This document shows positions 38,996-56,217 of a stretch of DNA of 64,000 nt, piece by piece. Within the stretch, counting starts at the first letter, position 1, and every line of letters begins with the position of its first letter. Position numbers and translations under genes: made by a program. The stretch comes from Anaerolineae bacterium (lineage in GTDB: Bacteria > Chloroflexota > Anaerolineae > Caldilineales > Caldilineaceae), in NCBI GenBank assembly GCA_030432295.1, contig JAUIHI010000003.1, positions 1 through 64,000 of the forward strand, given 5' to 3'. The notes under the pieces were generated by a model. That model did no database searches. It was not told the origin of the DNA and saw only the letters and a list, made by a program, of their open reading frames with translations.

Positions 38996-39031
38996 TCGTT
39001 GGTTTGGGAAGCAGAGCCTGACGCGTGACCG

Positions 39032-39095
39032 CCTTCCGGGAAGCGGCCACGAAATGTAGGGAATCCGGTAGTGGTTATGGCCGCTTCCCGGAAGG
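39032..39095 (+). promoter_or_regulatory. Perfect 18-bp stem-loop in the NB-ARC gene leader
   Basis: ccttccgggaagcggcca (39032-39049) pairs exactly with tggccgcttcccggaagg (39078-39095) around a 28-nt loop. It lies between the predicted transcription start and ATG 39133, 37 nt before the start codon. It could be a leader regulatory hairpin or a protein-binding palindrome. Confidence 0.5.
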
Positions 39096-39132
39096 ACCCA
39101 CCCACCCATTCCCAGCCAGGGGAAATCACCCA

Positions 39133-41424
39133 ATGACCAAAGAAACCAAAACCGACGGTGGCGCATACGTCGAGCGCGATGTGAATATCAGCGGTGGCGG
39201 GGATTTTGTGGGGAGGGACAAGAATGTCCACATCCACCCACCCCAACCCTACCGGCCACCCCTGCAACGCCCGGCCCGCGCCGACCACTTCCAGGACCGC
39301 AGAGCCGAGCTGGCCCAACTTCTGGCCGACCTCCAGCCCGGCGCGGTCATCACTGTGAGCGGACCGGGCGGGATGGGCAAGAGCGCGCTGGCCGCCGAAG
39401 CCGTCTGGCATCTGACCCCAGGCGAGCAGCCAGCGGATCAGCCCGGAGACCAGCCCGGAGACCAGCCGCCCACCCGCTTTCCCGACGGCATCTTCTTCCA
39501 CTCCTTCTACAACCAGCCCGCGGTGGACGCTGCCTGCGCGCAGATCGCCCGTTCCTTTGGCCTGGAAGCGGCAGGCAGCCCCCGGGAAAATGCCCGGCGT
39601 GCCCTGGCCGGACGCCGGGCACTGCTCATTCTGGACGGGGCGGAAGACGCGGACGACCTGGCCGGGCTGCTCGACCTGCGCGACGGCTGCGGGGTACTCA
39701 TCACCAGCCGGGACCGGCGCATCCACGCGGGCCGCCGCGCGGACCTGCCGCCCCTGCCCCCGGCGGATGCGGTCGCCCTGATCCGGGCCTGGGCCGGGGA
39801 GGCTGACCGGAGCCAAGCGGCAGCCGACCCGGCTATGGCCGACCCGACTGTGGCCGAAATTGCCGAACTGGTCGGCCACCTGCCGATGGCCCTGCGTCTG
39901 GTGGGCAGCTATCTGGACGAGAGCGCCGAGACCCCGACGGACTATCTGGCCTGGCTGGGTCGCTCGCCCCTGGCCGCGCTGGACAGGGGCCAGCGTCGGA
40001 TGCGCAGCGCGGAGATTCTGCTCGCACGCACAGTCGCCCGGTTGAGCGACGACGAACGCGACCTGCTGGCCGTGGCCGGTCTGCTCGCCTTTGCGCCGGT
40101 GGATGCGGGCATTATCGCCCACGCCCTGGAACGGGCATTGGACGACCTGCGCACGGCCTTTGCCCAACTAGTACGCTACAGTTTGCTGGTGCGGGATGGC
40201 GAGGGTCGTTACCAAACCGCCCACGCGCTGGTTCACACCTACGCCCGTCGCCGTCTGCGACCGCCGCGGGGAGCACTGGCCCGGCTGGCCGCCCACTACG
40301 ACCGTCTGGCCCGTGACCTGAGCGGCCAGGGGCTCGCCGGCTACTGGGCGCTGGATGGCCACCGGCCCCACCTGCTGGCTTTGATGGAGCGCTGCCACGA
40401 CGCCCAAGCCTGGAAAACCCTCTCTTCTCTGGTATGGGCTGTGAAGGATTATCTGGACATCCGGGGCTACACATCAGAGCGGGTCACCGTCCTGGGGTTG
40501 GGCGTCCTGGCCGCCCAGGGCCAGGGAGATCGGCGGGATGAGGGCGCGCACCTGGGCAATCTGGGCAATGCCTACCATTCCCTGGGGCAGGTGAAGGAGG
40601 CCATCGGGTACTATACACAGACACTGGAAATTCATAGGGAAATCGGCGACCGCCGGGGCGAGGGCAACGGCCTGGGCAATCTGGGCCTGGCCTACGCAGC
40701 CCTGGGGCAGGTGAAGGAGGCCATCGGGTACTACGAGGAGGCGCTGGTCATCAGCCGGGAAATCGGCGACCGCCGGGGCGAGGGCAACCGCCTGGGCAAT
40801 CTGGGCAATGCCTACGCAGCCCTGGGGCAGGTGAGCGAGGCCATCGGGTACTACGAGGAGGCGCTGGTCATCAGCCGGGAAATCGGTGACCACCGAGGCG
40901 AGGGCAACGGCCTGGGCAATCTGGGCCTGGCCTACGCAGACCTGGGGCAGGTGAGCGAGGCCATCGGGTACTACGAGGAGGCGCTGGTCATCAGCCGGGA
41001 AATCGGCGACCGCCGGGGCGAGGGCAACTATCTGGGCAGTCTGGGCATCGCTTACAAGAATCTCGGGCAGGTGAGCGAGGCCATCGGGTACTACGAGGAG
41101 GCGCTGGTCATCAGCCGGGAAATCGGCTACCGCCGGGGCGAGGGCGCGCACCTGGGCAATCTGGGCATTGCCTACTATTCCCTGGGGCAGGTGAGCGAGG
41201 CCATCGGCTACCACGAGGAGGCGCTGGTCATCAGCCGGGAAATCGGCGACCGCCGGGGCGAGGGCAACCGCCTGGGCAATCTGGGCCTGGCCTACAAGCA
41301 ACTGGGCGAACCAGAGAGAGCCAAAGCGCTCTGGCAGCAGGCTTTGGCCATCTACGAAGAGATACTGTCTCCCACCGCCGCAACTGTGCGCGGCTGGCTG
41401 GCCGAACTGGACGCTTCGCCGTAG
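39133..41424 (+). CDS. STAND ATPase with NB-ARC domain and C-terminal TPR array
   Basis: A 763-residue NLR-like protein. The N-terminal segment YVERDVNISGGGDFVGRDKN (12-31) is a short glycine-rich motif common before STAND domains and may couple to an effector. The NB-ARC core has Walker A GPGGMGKS (77-84), Walker B LLILDGAED, sensor TSRDRR (191-196) and a GLPLA-like HLPMALRL (249-256). A helical region to about 460 leads to about seven TPR units of 40 residues (GQVSEAIGYYEEALVISREI). Bacterial proteins of this type detect phage or stress ligands and oligomerise; no effector domain is fused or adjacent here. ATG 39133 is preceded by AGGGGAAAT; upstream in-frame codons fall in the leader hairpin. 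Confidence 0.88.
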   Translation: MTKETKTDGGAYVERDVNISGGGDFVGRDKNVHIHPPQPYRPPLQRPARADHFQDRRAELAQLLADLQPGAVITVSGPGGMGKSALAAEAVWHLTPGEQPADQPGDQPGDQPPTRFPDGIFFHSFYNQPAVDAACAQIARSFGLEAAGSPRENARRALAGRRALLILDGAEDADDLAGLLDLRDGCGVLITSRDRRIHAGRRADLPPLPPADAVALIRAWAGEADRSQAAADPAMADPTVAEIAELVGHLPMALRLVGSYLDESAETPTDYLAWLGRSPLAALDRGQRRMRSAEILLARTVARLSDDERDLLAVAGLLAFAPVDAGIIAHALERALDDLRTAFAQLVRYSLLVRDGEGRYQTAHALVHTYARRRLRPPRGALARLAAHYDRLARDLSGQGLAGYWALDGHRPHLLALMERCHDAQAWKTLSSLVWAVKDYLDIRGYTSERVTVLGLGVLAAQGQGDRRDEGAHLGNLGNAYHSLGQVKEAIGYYTQTLEIHREIGDRRGEGNGLGNLGLAYAALGQVKEAIGYYEEALVISREIGDRRGEGNRLGNLGNAYAALGQVSEAIGYYEEALVISREIGDHRGEGNGLGNLGLAYADLGQVSEAIGYYEEALVISREIGDRRGEGNYLGSLGIAYKNLGQVSEAIGYYEEALVISREIGYRRGEGAHLGNLGIAYYSLGQVSEAIGYHEEALVISREIGDRRGEGNRLGNLGLAYKQLGEPERAKALWQQALAIYEEILSPTAATVRGWLAELDASP
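40535..41300 (+). repeat. Near-identical 120-bp coding repeats (TPR array)
   Basis: About six consecutive 120-bp units share long identical stretches such as ctggtcatcagccgggaaat and gaggccatcgggtactacga. They differ mainly at a few codons of the exposed TPR face. The 120-bp period equals that of the array at 2-660, with a different consensus. Confidence 0.85.
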
Positions 41425-44083: not shown

Positions 44084-44893
44084 TCACTTTCTACGCAGTG
44101 TCTCCGCCGATGCCAGCACATCCGCCACCGCCTGTTCCCAGGCCAGGGGCGGGCGCTCGTTTTTGTCCAGCCAGATGAGGAATTCGACGTTGCCCGCGGG
44201 TCCCGGCGCGGGGGAGACGGTCAACCCGGCCACCCATACGCCCAGGGCGTGGGCCAGTTCGCTGATCTCGTCCAGCACCCGGCGGTGGACTGCCCGATCC
44301 CGCACGACGCCCCCTTTGCCCACGTCCTCCGGGCCAGCCTCGAACTGGGGTTTGATGAGCGCGACCACCTGACCGGCAGGGGTGAGCAGGCGTAACGTCG
44401 GGGGCAACACCAGTTCCAGCCCGATGAAACTGGCGTCGATGACGGCCAAATCAGCCAGAACGTCGTCGGGCAGGCTTTCCAAATAGCGGATATTCGTCCG
44501 CTCAATAGTGACCACCCGTTCATCCGAGCGCAGCTTCCAGGCCAACTGGCCGTAGCCCACATCCACTGCATAGACTTTGGCTGCGCCCCGCTGCAACAGA
44601 CAATCGGTGAAGCCGCCGGTGCTGGCCCCCACATCCACAGCAGTCAGGCCGGTGGGGTCGATGGCAAAGGCGTCCAGGGCCGCTTCCAGCTTCAGCCCGC
44701 CCCGGCTGACGAAGCGGGGGGGGGTGCGCACCCGCAGGTTGGCCTCCAACGGGACGAGCCGCCCGGCTTTGTCCGCCACCTGCTCGTCGATGAAGACTTC
44801 GCCCGCCATAATCAGTCGGCGGGCCTGCTCCCGGCTATCGACGAGCTCCCGCTCCACCAGCAGCAGGTCGAGCCGTTGTTTGTTCTTGGCCAT
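44084..44893 (-). CDS. tlyA: TlyA-family rRNA 2'-O-methyltransferase (S4 plus FtsJ-like domain)
   Basis: A 269-residue protein. The first 60 residues form an S4 RNA-binding domain ([22 protein letters not shown]). The remainder is a FtsJ/RrmJ-like methyltransferase with SAM motif [16 protein letters not shown] and catalytic K-D-K-E positions recognisable in [26 protein letters not shown] and NVEFL. TlyA methylates ribose in 16S and 23S rRNA, in some species affecting capreomycin sensitivity. Older annotation as hemolysin reflects the name only. The length is typical. Confidence 0.93.
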
Positions 44894-45058: not shown

Positions 45059-45988
45059 ATGAATCACTCTGCCAAATCCGTACCTGTCACATCTGTCACC
45101 CCCTCTTTTAGCAGCAATTTGGCCGGTCTGATCAAAACCATGCGCCTGAAGCAATGGACAAAGAATGGGTTTGTCCTGGCCGGGCTGATCTTCGACGGCA
45201 AGCTCTTCGATCTGCCTATGGCTGGGGCTGTGCTGGTGGTGATGTTGGGTTTCTGCCTGATCTCCAGCAGCGTCTACATTCTCAACGATCTGGTGGACAT
45301 CGAAAAGGATCGTCTGCACCCGCGCAAGCGTCTGCGTCCCCTGCCCAGTGGACGGCTAAGCCCAGCCTTCGCCAAATGGAGCGCGCTGCTGCTGGCTGTT
45401 GTGAGTATCCTCGTCACCGGGCTGATCAATGCGTGGGCGGGGGCGATTGTCGCCAGCTACCTGATTCTGAATATCTGGTACAGCTTTCACCTGAAGAATC
45501 TGGTGATTATCGATGTAATGATGATTGCCGGCTTCTTTGTGCTGCGGGTGGTGGCCGGTGTGGTGACGGTGGATGTGAGCAACTTCAGCCCCTGGCTCTA
45601 TGTCTGTGTCAGCCTGCTGGCCCTCTTTCTGGGCTTTGGCAAACGCCGCCACGAATTCGCGCTGCTGGAAGAGGGCGCGGCCAGCCACCGGGCGAGCCTG
45701 GCCCACTACAATCTGCCCCTGCTCGACCAGATTCTGGGCATTGTCACTACCAGTGGGCTGCTGGCCTACACTCTCTATACTTTTGAAGCCAAGACCGCCC
45801 TGGCCCAGGACGGTCATATGCTGCTGACTGTACCCTTCATCCTCTACGCGGCTTTCCGCTACCTCTACCTGATCCACGTCGAAAAAAGGGGCGGTGCACC
45901 CGAAGATTTGCTCTTCGAGGACCGTCCCTTCTTGCTCTCTGTGCTGTTGTGGGGGGTGTCGGTGGTAGGAGTGATTTATCTGTGGTAG
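45059..45988 (+). CDS. UbiA prenyltransferase family, DPPR-synthase-like
   Basis: A 309-residue membrane enzyme with about eight or nine helices. The first aspartate motif is NDLVDIEKD (76-84), followed by DRLHPRKRLRPLPSG, the pattern of decaprenyl-phosphate phosphoribosyltransferases. A second motif DQILGIV lies near 223. Known relatives transfer phosphoribose to polyprenyl phosphate for cell-wall arabinan; a different aromatic substrate is possible. The start ATG 45059 lies at the end of short caaccaa repeats and lacks a clear ribosome site, so an inner start near Met61-encoding codons is unlikely but possible. Confidence 0.85.
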   Translation: MNHSAKSVPVTSVTPSFSSNLAGLIKTMRLKQWTKNGFVLAGLIFDGKLFDLPMAGAVLVVMLGFCLISSSVYILNDLVDIEKDRLHPRKRLRPLPSGRLSPAFAKWSALLLAVVSILVTGLINAWAGAIVASYLILNIWYSFHLKNLVIIDVMMIAGFFVLRVVAGVVTVDVSNFSPWLYVCVSLLALFLGFGKRRHEFALLEEGAASHRASLAHYNLPLLDQILGIVTTSGLLAYTLYTFEAKTALAQDGHMLLTVPFILYAAFRYLYLIHVEKRGGAPEDLLFEDRPFLLSVLLWGVSVVGVIYLW

Positions 45989-45996
45989 GAGTAGCA

Positions 45997-46050
45997 GTCA
46001 ACCAATGAACCAATCAACTATTCAACAAGTTGATTGGTTCATTGGTTGAC
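45997..46050. terminator. Perfect 23-bp palindromic stem between convergent genes
   Basis: The arms at 45997-46019 and 46028-46050 (gtcaaccaatgaaccaatca.. and exact complement) flank an 8-nt loop. It is between the UbiA stop and the PHP-fusion stop. It is AT-rich, unlike the other stems, and its caaccaa string also occurs before the UbiA start. Confidence 0.6.
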
Positions 46051-46064
46051 TGGTTCATTCTCAC

Positions 46065-47924
46065 TTATTTCCCCACAAACTCCGCCCACGGCCCTTCCAT
46101 TCCGTCCTCGGTGACGCCGTAGAAGACCCGGATGTTCTTGCCATCCCGGCGGGCCAGGTCGTAGCGCACCTTCCCTGCCCGGCTTTCAGAAGCGACCAGT
46201 CCCACATTGCCCTTCCACTGGACTTTGTTGGGGTCCACCGGGTGGTCCTCCACCTGGGCGATGGCGTAGTTCCACAGCTTGCGTGCGCCCTTGCGGGTGA
46301 CATTGCTCACCGAGCGGGCGTTGCGCAGATCGCTAACGACGTAGTAGTTGACGCCGTTGCGGTTCTCGCTGGAGACAATCTCCACACCCACCTGGGGCAG
46401 ATCGAAGGGATCACTCGTTGCCGAGGTTTTGGCCGAGGCTGTGTTATCGTTGCCGCGTCCAGAGCCACTGGAATTGCTACTGCCGCTACCTCGGCGGCGA
46501 CGGCGGCTGTTGCTGCTGCTACTGGACGCCGTTGTCGATGACTTTTCTGCGACAGCCGCGACCTCTGGCGCACCGCCCCGGCTGATCCCAGCGTTTTCCA
46601 GCACCAGGGCCACAATCTCATCCCGCACGGCCAGGCTGGTCTCGGCGTCGTTGCGCACGTAGAATTTGGACTGATCGAGACAATAGGGTTTCTCGTCGCC
46701 CTCGTCCACGCTCAAACGCAACACCTGGGCGTTGTTGCTCTGAGTCGTCTCAAAGCGTACCTCTAGCTGGGGCTGCAAACGTTCGGCAATCGCGGCCTGC
46801 AACTCTTTCTGCACCCCTTTGAGGTTGGAGAGACCCTTCACTGGCCCTTTGCGCACACTGGCCCCCACGTAGACCGCACCGCCATCCGTATTGGCAAAGG
46901 CGCACAGATCGGCCAGCACAGCCGCCTGACGCCCGCCCCGGACAGTGGCTGTCTCGTGGAAGCTCTGCACCTGATTTGGCCCTTCGGCCCGAGCCACGGC
47001 CAGATGATCGATGGGCTTGTCTTTGGGGCGATAGGCCCGGGTGCGGTCAAAATTGGTGCTGCGCAGAAGCTCTGCAATTGCCTCAAAGCTGGCTTCAGGC
47101 AGCAGCAGTTCTGTAACCCGGTCGCCCACGCCCAGCCGCTTGGGATTCTTGGGGTCGGCTATCAGCCGGTGTGCGTCACTGCCCTGAAGACAGTGCATTT
47201 TTCGGGCATATTCGGGCTTGCTACCGTTGAAGAAGCGGGGCGTGCTGCTGCGGCTGCGGCTCTCCAGGTCAGTCACTTCCAGCGCGACCAGATGCTCGTT
47301 CTGGGTGTAGGCAATTTTGGTCTGCCCGCCAAAGGGGAAATTGCGCATAGCCACGCCGTGGGTGCTGTTGGCGTGGGCCGCAATCGCCAAGCCACCGGCT
47401 TCGGTGATGATCTGATAGGCGTTGAGGACATCGGTGCTGGCCCCGGTCTCCGTGCTGCCCTGGTCCAGCTTCTCTGCCGGGACATTCAGGTCGAGCAGCA
47501 CGTGCTCCAGATGGCGCACGCTTGTCTCTGGGGGAAAGATGCCCAGGATGTGAAAACCAAAGGTGGCGGTAAATTCAAAGCCAGGCAGGACGAGGATTTT
47601 GTTGGCAAGGGTGCGCCATTCGTCAAGACGGCTCTTTTCCTCGTCGTTCAGCCGGTTCTGATCCTCTAGACGGGCCAGCCATTCGATCTCTTTGCGCACT
47701 GCGGCCACGCCCGCCACAGTGTTGTGATCGGTGATGGCTATAATGTCCAGTTCTTTCTCGTTTGCCTTGCGCAGCCATTCCAAATAGGTGACTTTGGGTT
47801 CTTCGTAGTCGTGGGAGGCCGGGGTATGCAGATGCATATCGGCTTTGAACCAGTGCAACTTCGAGGTGTCCGGGTTGGATGTGGAGGGGGCGGGGGTATT
47901 GGGTGTTTTTCTTCTTCTGCTCAC
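46065..47924 (-). CDS. PHP phosphoesterase fused to a Schlafen/AlbA_2-type domain
   Basis: A 619-residue protein. The PHP domain (about 25-310) has metal ligands H31, H33, H38, D66-H67, E117, H184 and D250-H252 (GSDAHR), an intact trinuclear site. Residues 320-435 match the AlbA_2 domain of Schlafen-like proteins ([26 protein letters not shown]), with E324 conserved. A low-complexity Ser/Arg linker (462-500) precedes a C-terminal beta-rich domain of about 110 residues I do not recognise. PHP domains hydrolyse phosphoesters and some Schlafen-type proteins are RNases, so a nuclease acting on RNA or nucleotides is likely, possibly in defence. Start is GTG 47924 without a clear ribosome site. It is alone on its strand. 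Confidence 0.8.
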
Positions 47925-49534: not shown

Positions 49535-50029
49535 ATGCGAGACGAGCGCTACATCGCTGTCCATCGGGGCGGCCCGTTGAGTTTGGAACGCCACCGGCTG
49601 CTGGCCGCGTGGGCTGCGGACTGCGCGGAGCGCGTACTTCCACTCTTTGCCGAACAAAATCCAAATGATAATCGACCCCGGCAGGCTATCGAGATGGCAC
49701 GGGCCTGGAGCAGGGGAGAAATCACAGTGGGGGAAGCCCGGGCCGCCAGTGTGGCCTCTCACACAGCGGCCCGGGAAGCGGATGAGGGCGCAGCACGCTT
49801 TGTCGCCCGTGCCGCTGGTCACGCGGTAGCCACGGCCCATATGGCCGACCACGCGCCGGGCGGGGCTGTCTATGCCCTGAAGGCTATCCGGTCTGCGGCT
49901 GTCCCAGCACAGGCTGATACCGTCGTCGCTCAGGAGCATCGCTGGCAGAAAGAGCATCTCCCCGACGAGATTCGGGAATTGGTGCTTTCCACCTTCGCTG
50001 GGAAGTTTGCCTATCTCAATACTCTGTAA
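49535..50029 (+). CDS. Imm5-like putative immunity protein
   Basis: A 164-residue all-helical protein. The pattern LLAAWAADCAERVLPLFAE, RPRQAIEMARAWSRGEITVGEAR and AAGHAVATAHMADHAPGGA recalls the Imm5-type putative immunity family, in which these blocks are conserved. It follows the broken glycosyltransferase by 6 bp. No polymorphic toxin gene is visible nearby, so it may be an orphan immunity gene or have another role. No obvious ribosome site beyond GGGATGAGGAAG just upstream, which is adequate. Confidence 0.7.
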   Translation: MRDERYIAVHRGGPLSLERHRLLAAWAADCAERVLPLFAEQNPNDNRPRQAIEMARAWSRGEITVGEARAASVASHTAAREADEGAARFVARAAGHAVATAHMADHAPGGAVYALKAIRSAAVPAQADTVVAQEHRWQKEHLPDEIRELVLSTFAGKFAYLNTL

Positions 50030-51805: not shown

Positions 51806-52093
51806 CTATGCCAGTTCGAGAAAGACTTCAGGGCGTTGCTCGGCAATACGGAGCAGCGTCCTGGCTGCGCCGCTGGGTGTTCGTCGTCCCTGCTCCCAAT
51901 CCTGCACCGTGCGCAGGCTCACACCCATCAACCCGGCAAAAGCAGATTGGGAAAGTTCCAGTTTGGCGCGAACTTCTTGAGCGGGAGCCGACTGGTGCAA
52001 TTTACGCGCGCGCAGTTCAATCTCCCCCGCCTTATATTGCTTGATTTCCCGAATGCCGTCCAGAATTTCCTGTCCGATGTTACGTTCAGCCAT
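51806..52093 (-). CDS. higA: XRE-family antitoxin, HigA-like
   Basis: A 95-residue helix-turn-helix protein. The DNA-binding segment LSQSAFAGLMGVSLRTVQDWEQGRR is the classic Cro/C1-type HTH of NadS/HigA antitoxins. An N-terminal helical part (NIGQEILDGIREIKQYKAG) is the expected toxin contact. It follows the toxin gene with an 8-bp overlap, and a 31-bp palindrome at 52400-52430 is its probable operator. Symbol by family resemblance. Confidence 0.88.
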   Translation of the reverse strand: MAERNIGQEILDGIREIKQYKAGEIELRARKLHQSAPAQEVRAKLELSQSAFAGLMGVSLRTVQDWEQGRRTPSGAARTLLRIAEQRPEVFLELA

Positions 52094-52397
52094 TTTTGAT
52101 TTCCTCTGCTATCCTTCTTAAGATGTGGGCCGGAATATTCTCTGTCTCGTTCTTTGCATACAAAGTCAAAAGCCAAATCTCATCATCTGCCTGCTTCCAA
52201 TAGTAGATGATCCGTGAGCCGCCACGTTTGCCCCGGCCTGCCATCGACCAGCGAAGTTTGCGGACACCACCGCTGCCTGGCACGATTGAGCCAGCACTTG
52301 GGCGTTGTAGCAGGTAGCCTTGCAAGCCCAGATATTCCTCTTCACTCATATAGTCGTATATGTGTCGGGTGAAGCTAGACGTTTCAATGAATATCAT
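52086..52397 (-). CDS. higB: RelE/HigB-type toxin
   Basis: A 103-residue protein of the RelE/ParE fold. ETSSFTRHIYDYMSEEEYLGL, GVRKLRWSMAGRGKRGGSRIIYYW and IWLLTLYAKNETENI match HigB-type toxins with the basic Arg/Lys strand used for mRNA cleavage on ribosomes. The toxin gene comes first, as in higBA. ATG 52397 lies two bases after the operator palindrome, so the transcript is probably nearly leaderless and lacks a ribosome site. The frame extends upstream to 52433 but only through the palindrome. Confidence 0.88.
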   Translation of the reverse strand: MIFIETSSFTRHIYDYMSEEEYLGLQGYLLQRPSAGSIVPGSGGVRKLRWSMAGRGKRGGSRIIYYWKQADDEIWLLTLYAKNETENIPAHILRRIAEEIKNG

Positions 52398-52399
52398 AC

Positions 52400-52433
52400 A
52401 CAGAGTATACGGCAGTGCCGTATACTCTGTCAA
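52400..52433 (-). promoter_or_regulatory. higBA promoter with overlapping perfect operator palindrome
   Basis: acagagtatacggca (52400-52414), a G, then its exact complement to 52430 form a 31-bp palindrome. On the minus strand TTGACA (52433-52428) and TATACT (52409-52404) are spaced by 18 bp and lie across it, so repressor binding would cover the promoter. The predicted start site falls at or next to ATG 52397. Confidence 0.75.
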
Positions 52434-54936: not shown

Positions 54937-56217
54937 ATGCCTCTTCTCGAAAATGCCCACGCCCTGGTCGTGGGCATCGCCAACTATCAGAATGTGGGTA
55001 AGCTCCCGCCCAGTGTGCTGGGGGATTCGATGGGCATCTACAAAACCCTCATCGACCCGGAGACCTGCGCCTATCCACGGCAGAATGTGACGCTTCTGCA
55101 GGACGGGAAGGCAACCGCCGCGACTTTGCGCGAGGCACTGGCGGCCCTGGCCGAAAAGACGGATAGCCACTCGACTGTCACTATCTATCTTTCCAGCCAC
55201 GGCGGGCGAATTGAGGCGGGCGAACACCGGGGGGAGTACATCGCGCCGGTGGATGTGCGGGTGGATCCGGCGGACCCGTCGGTGCTGGCTGGCTCGGCCA
55301 TCTCTGGCAGCGAATTCAGCGCAGCCCTGGAGGCTATCCCCGCGGCCAAAGTGCTGGTGCTGCTGGACTGTTGCCACGCGGGGGGCATCGGCGAGGCAAA
55401 AGACCTGGCCCCGGATATCGGGCTGGCCAAAGGCTTTTCCCAGGAGATGATCGACCGGCTGGGCGCGGGCAAAGGCCGGGCGATTCTGGCTTCGGCCCGG
55501 CCCGACGAGAAATCCTACATTCTCTCCGGCGATCAGCACAGCCTCTTCACCAAACATCTGCTGGCCGGTCTGGCCGGGGCGGTGGCAGGCGAGGACGAGT
55601 TTGTGCGGGTCTTTCGGCTCTACGAATATGTGCAGCCGAGAGTGACGGCCCAGCATCCCAACCAGCACCCCCGCTTCAAAGCCAATTTAGAGGACAATTT
55701 CGCCGTCGCCTTCTACAAAGGCGGGCAGACGAAGCAGGTCCCACCGGCCCCGGCTGCCAGCGAAGATGAATTCACCTACGACGTCTACATCAGCTATACG
55801 GACAGAGAGCCGGATTCTACGTGGGTGTGGGAAAAATTTGTGCCCCAATTGGAGGATGCCGGCATTCCCCCCGAACGGATCGCTGTCGTCGGCGAAGTAG
55901 AGCGCCGGGGCGTCACGCTGCTGCTGGAAGCCGAGCGTGCGCTGCTGCAATCCAAGCGGGTGGTGCTGGCCATGTCGAACGGTTATTTTGCCGACACCCG
56001 GGCCAAATTCGACATCGCCCTCACCCAAAACGAGCAGGTGAAGGCCAATACCTTCCGCCTGTTGCCGATGATTATCGACGCGGAAATGGACCGCTCCCTC
56101 ATCCCGCCCCGGCTGGACATCTACGGCCCGGTGGATGTGACCCATCCCCGGATGGGAGAACGGCGACTGGCAAAGGTCGCATCGGAGATTAAGGGTCCCC
56201 TGCCGCTGGGGGATTAG
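54937..56217 (+). CDS. Caspase-like protease fused to a C-terminal TIR domain
   Basis: A 426-residue protein. The N-terminal caspase/metacaspase (C14) domain runs to about 260 with catalytic His H88 (YLSSHGG) and Cys C146 (LLDCCHAGG), both present. A short Pro/Ala linker (268-275) leads to a TIR-like domain (279-410) starting FTYDVYISYTDRE, with RIAVVGEVERRGVT and VVLAMSNGYFADTRAKFDIALTQ. At the position of the catalytic Glu of NADase TIR domains there is Asp (D359), so this TIR may signal by assembly. TIR- and caspase-based proteins act in antiphage immunity with cell death; here both are in one chain. ACGGAG precedes ATG 54937 and its own promoter is visible. No sensor gene is adjacent. Confidence 0.85.
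   Translation: MPLLENAHALVVGIANYQNVGKLPPSVLGDSMGIYKTLIDPETCAYPRQNVTLLQDGKATAATLREALAALAEKTDSHSTVTIYLSSHGGRIEAGEHRGEYIAPVDVRVDPADPSVLAGSAISGSEFSAALEAIPAAKVLVLLDCCHAGGIGEAKDLAPDIGLAKGFSQEMIDRLGAGKGRAILASARPDEKSYILSGDQHSLFTKHLLAGLAGAVAGEDEFVRVFRLYEYVQPRVTAQHPNQHPRFKANLEDNFAVAFYKGGQTKQVPPAPAASEDEFTYDVYISYTDREPDSTWVWEKFVPQLEDAGIPPERIAVVGEVERRGVTLLLEAERALLQSKRVVLAMSNGYFADTRAKFDIALTQNEQVKANTFRLLPMIIDAEMDRSLIPPRLDIYGPVDVTHPRMGERRLAKVASEIKGPLPLGD

Follow-up and report, generated by a model that had tools for sequence, protein, structure and literature searches.

The combination of a PHP phosphoesterase, a Schlafen-type AlbA_2 domain and a third domain of no recognised family in one bacterial protein raises the question of what such an enzyme does, and whether it belongs to host defence. 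The gene lies in a stretch of 64,000 nucleotides from an Anaerolineae bacterium (contig JAUIHI010000003.1), hereafter the window. The original prediction saw in it a two-activity nuclease or processing enzyme, plausibly defensive. To judge from sequence comparison, the fusion is an old, vertically inherited, single-copy core gene of one bacterial phylum. For its function, a phosphoesterase or nuclease that acts on nucleic acid, likeliest on RNA ends, held there by two binding domains and serving RNA or stress quality control, stands at about even chances.

Gene, distribution and inheritance

The open reading frame is real: dozens of genomes conserve it from end to end, which excludes chance. 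A literature search found no paper on the PHP–AlbA_2–C-terminal-domain fusion, in agreement with the original impression that the combination is not a characterised system. Its features and those of its surroundings are collected in Table 1.

Table 1. Coordinates of the fusion gene, its domains and neighbouring features in the window
Feature	Position	Strand	Basis and remarks
PHP–AlbA_2–C-terminal-domain fusion gene	46065..47924	-	619 aa, GTG start; ORF and full-length conservation in homologues
PHP domain, residues ~22-300	47025..47861	-	TrlF/Ppl/CehA profiles; ligands H31, H33, D39, H67, E117, H125, H184, D250, H252
SLFN AlbA_2 domain, residues ~320-445	46590..46967	-	Pfam PF04326; profile match to SLFN11, SLFN12 and CbCash structures; S321 and H323 in place of the Schlafen E and K
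Low-complexity Ser/Arg-rich linker, residues 446-504	46413..46589	-	Unconserved
Unclassified C-terminal domain, residues 505-619	46068..46412	-	Predicted two beta-beta-beta-alpha lobes; without Pfam or PDB sequence match
UbiA-family prenyltransferase	45059..45988	+	Pfam; convergent gene, a conserved neighbour throughout the family (cluster c2, 15 loci)
TlyA-like S4 and FtsJ methyltransferase	44084..44893	-	Pfam; conserved neighbour (cluster c5, 10 loci)
24-bp perfect inverted repeat (45995-46018 / 46029-46052)	45995..46052	.	Between the convergent UbiA gene and the fusion gene; read from the sequence

Of the 46 genomes in the window's family, 39 carry the fusion; among 400 from across the phylum it is present in 61, and among 150 from another group, the class of genome G179, in 105. 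It is nearly always single-copy: where a genome shows a second match, this is mostly the C-terminal part of one and the same reading frame. A tree of 37 proteins unites each family represented at least twice in one clade, and its family labels need no more than the minimum of 13 changes, which points to vertical inheritance with losses. Beyond the phylum, the search comprised one peptide-pattern scan reaching close relatives, together with the plasmid, phage and viral collections, so that a wider occurrence is possible. The scan of all genome contigs recovered eight loci, mostly titled Caldilineaceae, Litorilinea or Chloroflexi. Plasmid and phage collections did not contain the fusion and gave matches to the PHP half only, the plasmid-annotated ones being mainly Ppl/TrlF; no occurrence of the C-terminal domain was confirmed in viral contigs.

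The patchy, mobile and island-associated distribution expected of anti-phage systems is thus not that of the fusion. The original prediction made its defence reading depend on the fusion not being widespread in housekeeping loci, and the survey across genomes found exactly such a gene: a widespread, near-single-copy, vertically inherited core gene beside UbiA, TlyA and Lon. The defence inference therefore fails, and the guess gives way to a conserved core gene of a poorly studied phylum.

The homologues vary in length. One of them (L150, genome G452) is an open frame of 1385 aa with long low-complexity N- and C-terminal extensions, and several others have open frames of 900-1060 aa.

PHP domain

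All the motifs of the PHP superfamily (H-x-H, D-H, E, H, H, D-x-H) are present in the fusion. Among 56 aligned homologues, H31, H33, H67, E117, H125, H184, D250 and H252 are invariant and D39 is retained in 54, from which an active PHP site is to be expected in almost every member. The complete set of metal ligands read from the sequence alone was in this way confirmed, and the domain itself by the TrlF and Ppl profiles. Residues 24-259 align to NCBIfam TrlF_fam_ATP (E 3.8e-32) and residues 24-254 to NCBIfam Ppl (E 2.8e-28), in both cases covering the PHP part of a longer protein only; the full-length profile scores, 98 of 1000 bits for Ppl and 112 of 350 for TrlF, fall below the cut-offs. PADLOC assigns the PHP half to Ppl. 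The NCBIfam profiles of CehA/McbA, RNase RNM and nucleoside bisphosphate phosphatase match the same part more weakly, and Pfam PF02811 (PHP) stays under its threshold (18.1 vs 26.4 bits).

Sequence matches of the whole protein in the PDB are PHP phosphoesterases only, namely 9etk (E 0.002) and 7ug9 (E 0.23), the structure of a 5'-3' exoribonuclease; both matches are weak. A full-length AlphaFold model, built on an alignment of nine sequences, was unusable (pLDDT 42, pTM 0.26).

AlbA_2 domain

The AlbA_2 domain proposed at residues ~320-435 was recovered by domain search at residues 336-430 (PF04326, E 2e-14, 54.6 bits against a curated cut-off of 25.3), and its profile matches the structures of SLFN11, SLFN12, SLFN5 and CbCash. 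It carries the A-N-x-x-G-G motif common to SLFN11/12/13/14 and bacterial AlbA_2 proteins, from which it differs in coming after a PHP domain and in its lack of the Schlafen catalytic Glu and Lys. In SLFN11, E214 and K216 are essential nuclease residues (PMC9482658). A profile alignment to the structures places them on S321 and H323 of the fusion. None of the 56 homologues has a glutamate at position 321, and the fusion alignment has no conserved Glu at 316, the position of SLFN11 E209. An F-H-E motif lies near the site of the Schlafen E-F-K motif in most homologues; it is gapped or changed in others, and the Schlafen-type motif is gapped in the six members of the 770-aa type. Because the Glu and Lys are replaced, because 321 is never Glu and because the motif is gapped in the 770-aa type, the domain is unlikely to be a Schlafen-type nuclease. 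Its sequence makes a nucleic-acid-binding domain more likely, and the second activity of the original prediction is not upheld.

The Ser/Arg-rich linker that follows is indeed present in this protein. As a general feature it did not stand: among homologues the segment between AlbA_2 and the C-terminal domain can be as short as 15 aa or as long as 164 aa, and a basic run of at least three residues occurs in only 9 of the 56.

C-terminal domain

The last ~110 residues, earlier described as unrecognised, proved so: residues 505-619 gave no Pfam match even at E 10, and a 15-sequence profile found no significant sequence match in the PDB. A model of the domain from eight sequences (mean pLDDT 71, pTM 0.47) predicts the two-lobed fold given in Table 1. 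The best Foldseek matches in the PDB include the tandem dsRBDs of TRBP and NF90 (E 0.018 or worse, TM about 0.25; non-significant). Overall, the best E is 0.01-0.03 with a TM of about 0.25, in a comparison with tandem dsRBD and AP2-like folds, and the viral structure matches, likewise non-significant, include an AP2-domain protein. As these fold matches are non-significant, nucleic-acid binding by the C-terminal domain is a guess.

The 770-aa members carry an additional, weaker copy of the domain, and some also a half copy. A profile alignment was suggestive of an internal duplication within the domain itself (35% identity over 40 columns), but this was rejected as 10 of 60 column shuffles equalled the score.

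The same domain also occurs on another protein. In genome G406, a protein with an NYN domain (L107, from 8285, + strand; NYN Pfam E 4.7e-32) bears it, and the PHP–AlbA_2 fusion was not found there at E 1e-20. In 4 of the 5 other genomes of the same family, the domain sits on the usual PHP fusion. NYN domains are a PIN-like RNase family, and the catalytic domain of this protein is unrelated to PHP. The presence of the C-terminal domain on an NYN protein, in a genome where no PHP fusion was detected, looks new. The central part of this protein seemed by eye to hold LOTUS/OST-HTH domains, but Pfam detected none at E 0.1. What looked like a stand-alone C-terminal domain (L149) turned out to be an ORF cut by a contig end.

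PHP ligand loss in one genus

Genus g132 departs from the general pattern. Nearly all PHP ligands are replaced in the two loci that were read (L143, from 7886, +; L144, from 694, +), and three more genomes of the genus give the same weak score. L143 retains the C-terminal domain and an AlbA_2 domain that still scores 2.4e-8. The protein thus persists in spite of the lost ligands; catalysis is therefore not the only selected function, and the remainder of the protein probably has its own role. Such a loss, with AlbA_2 and the C-terminal domain persisting, looks new and makes a separate role of these two domains testable.

Genomic neighbourhood

The inverted repeat between the UbiA and fusion genes is probably a bidirectional terminator. 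Besides UbiA and TlyA, a further conserved association involves lon, which precedes the fusion on the same strand in 14 of the 18 genomes of the window's family and in 9 more from 8 other families, spanning at least two classes; together these make 23 inspected genomes of nine families. By tblastn, the gap between the two genes is about 35 bp to about 1.2 kb in all but one genome, G363, where it reaches about 2 kb with intervening frames. Pfam confirmed the identity of Lon in two families distant from each other. At four loci lon is itself preceded by a small gene, a member of a cluster that was confirmed as HSP20. The best Lon match in the window's own genome is on another contig, and lon was not found near the fusion at ten loci of the 770-aa group (L090-L099, class of G179). 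The Lon link is hence old and recurrent, not universal. CIRCE heat-shock operators near the Lon–PHP loci were dismissed: the sole perfect site (L103:1853) lies some 7 kb away from the gene, and the remainder does not rise above chance.

Other genes of the window include an NB-ARC–TPR (STAND-like) protein with highly similar TPR repeats (39025-41424, +) and a caspase (Peptidase_C14)–TIR fusion, a candidate conflict or defence protein (54937-56217, +). An Imm5-like putative immunity protein (49535-50029, +) has no obvious partner toxin nearby. Two small overlapping ORFs (51806-52433, -) resemble by eye a HigB/HigA-type toxin–antitoxin pair, without a PADLOC match.

Proposed function and alternatives

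In the reading to which we give even chances, the N-terminal PHP domain would be an active polynuclear-metal phosphoesterase or nuclease, and AlbA_2 and the C-terminal domain would hold it on nucleic acid, most likely RNA, without adding a second catalytic activity. The enzyme's most likely task would be the trimming or hydrolysis of RNA ends during RNA processing or quality control, with a tie to a Lon/Hsp20 protein-stress gene cluster in many lineages. We infer the metal identity, the RNA substrate, the direction of attack, the binding by the accessory domains, the regulation and the stress link. RNA is favoured on two grounds: a PHP protein, RNase AM, works as a metal-dependent exoribonuclease in the 5'-3' direction (PMC9410882), and an NYN protein has the C-terminal domain in common with the fusion; the stress link rests on the Lon/Hsp20 synteny. 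If the RNA reading is true, the fusion would represent a new end-processing nuclease, its C-terminal domain a new family of nucleic-acid-binding domains, and the locus a link between Lon and RNA metabolism. A more specific version is decidedly tentative: a nucleic-acid quality-control nuclease peculiar to the phylum and encoded next to Lon and Hsp20, with a previously undescribed C-terminal nucleic-acid-binding module that could be swapped between the unrelated PHP and NYN nuclease families, so that a single gene cluster would join the quality control of protein and RNA.

Small phosphoesters are substrates of PHP enzymes too, which counts against the RNA-end reading. A small-molecule or nucleotide phosphatase of the CehA/TrpH type, whose AlbA_2 and C-terminal domains served for DNA binding or regulation, would account for the matches to CehA/McbA and 3',5'-nucleoside bisphosphate phosphatase profiles, and some AlbA_2 proteins are annotated as DNA-binding regulators. 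As the TrlF/Ppl-type PHP profiles score much better and the C-terminal domain is common to an NYN-family protein, we regard this phosphatase as rather unlikely. The closeness of the PHP half to Ppl and TrlF (about 25-28% identity over residues 25-303), together with a STAND-like and a caspase–TIR gene about 5-7 kb away, could instead suggest an anti-phage effector in which PHP is the nuclease and AlbA_2 the sensor in place of the ATPase. Ppl, an anti-phage PHP-ATPase, and TrlF are mobile and have a C-terminal ATPase, whereas the fusion is a core chromosomal gene without one (only positions 4-241 of 944 match), near-universal in several families, with housekeeping synteny and absent from the plasmid and phage collections searched. 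An effector of this kind is accordingly improbable.

If PHP had a structural role, like the one proposed in E. coli DNA polymerase III, the protein would be chiefly a non-catalytic scaffold that binds RNA or DNA. This agrees with the retention of AlbA_2 and the C-terminal domain in genus g132, but the eight ligands are invariant across families and classes in all 56 other aligned homologues, and we give the scaffold little credence. Least probable of all is a nuclease with two activities, PHP and an active Schlafen-type tRNA endonuclease domain: the clear AlbA_2 and the F-H-E of most homologues speak for it, the substituted and never-glutamate catalytic positions and the gapped or changed motif of the others against it.

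Among the closest known systems is also the PHP 5'-3' exoribonuclease RNase AM / RNase RNM, which belongs to the same PHP superfamily and has the same kind of metal ligands as the fusion (PMC9410882). It differs from the fusion in having no AlbA_2 domain, and the RNase RNM profile is weak on the fusion (28 vs a cut-off of 375 bits). Two shorter PHP-like frames of about 250 aa occur elsewhere in the window's genome.
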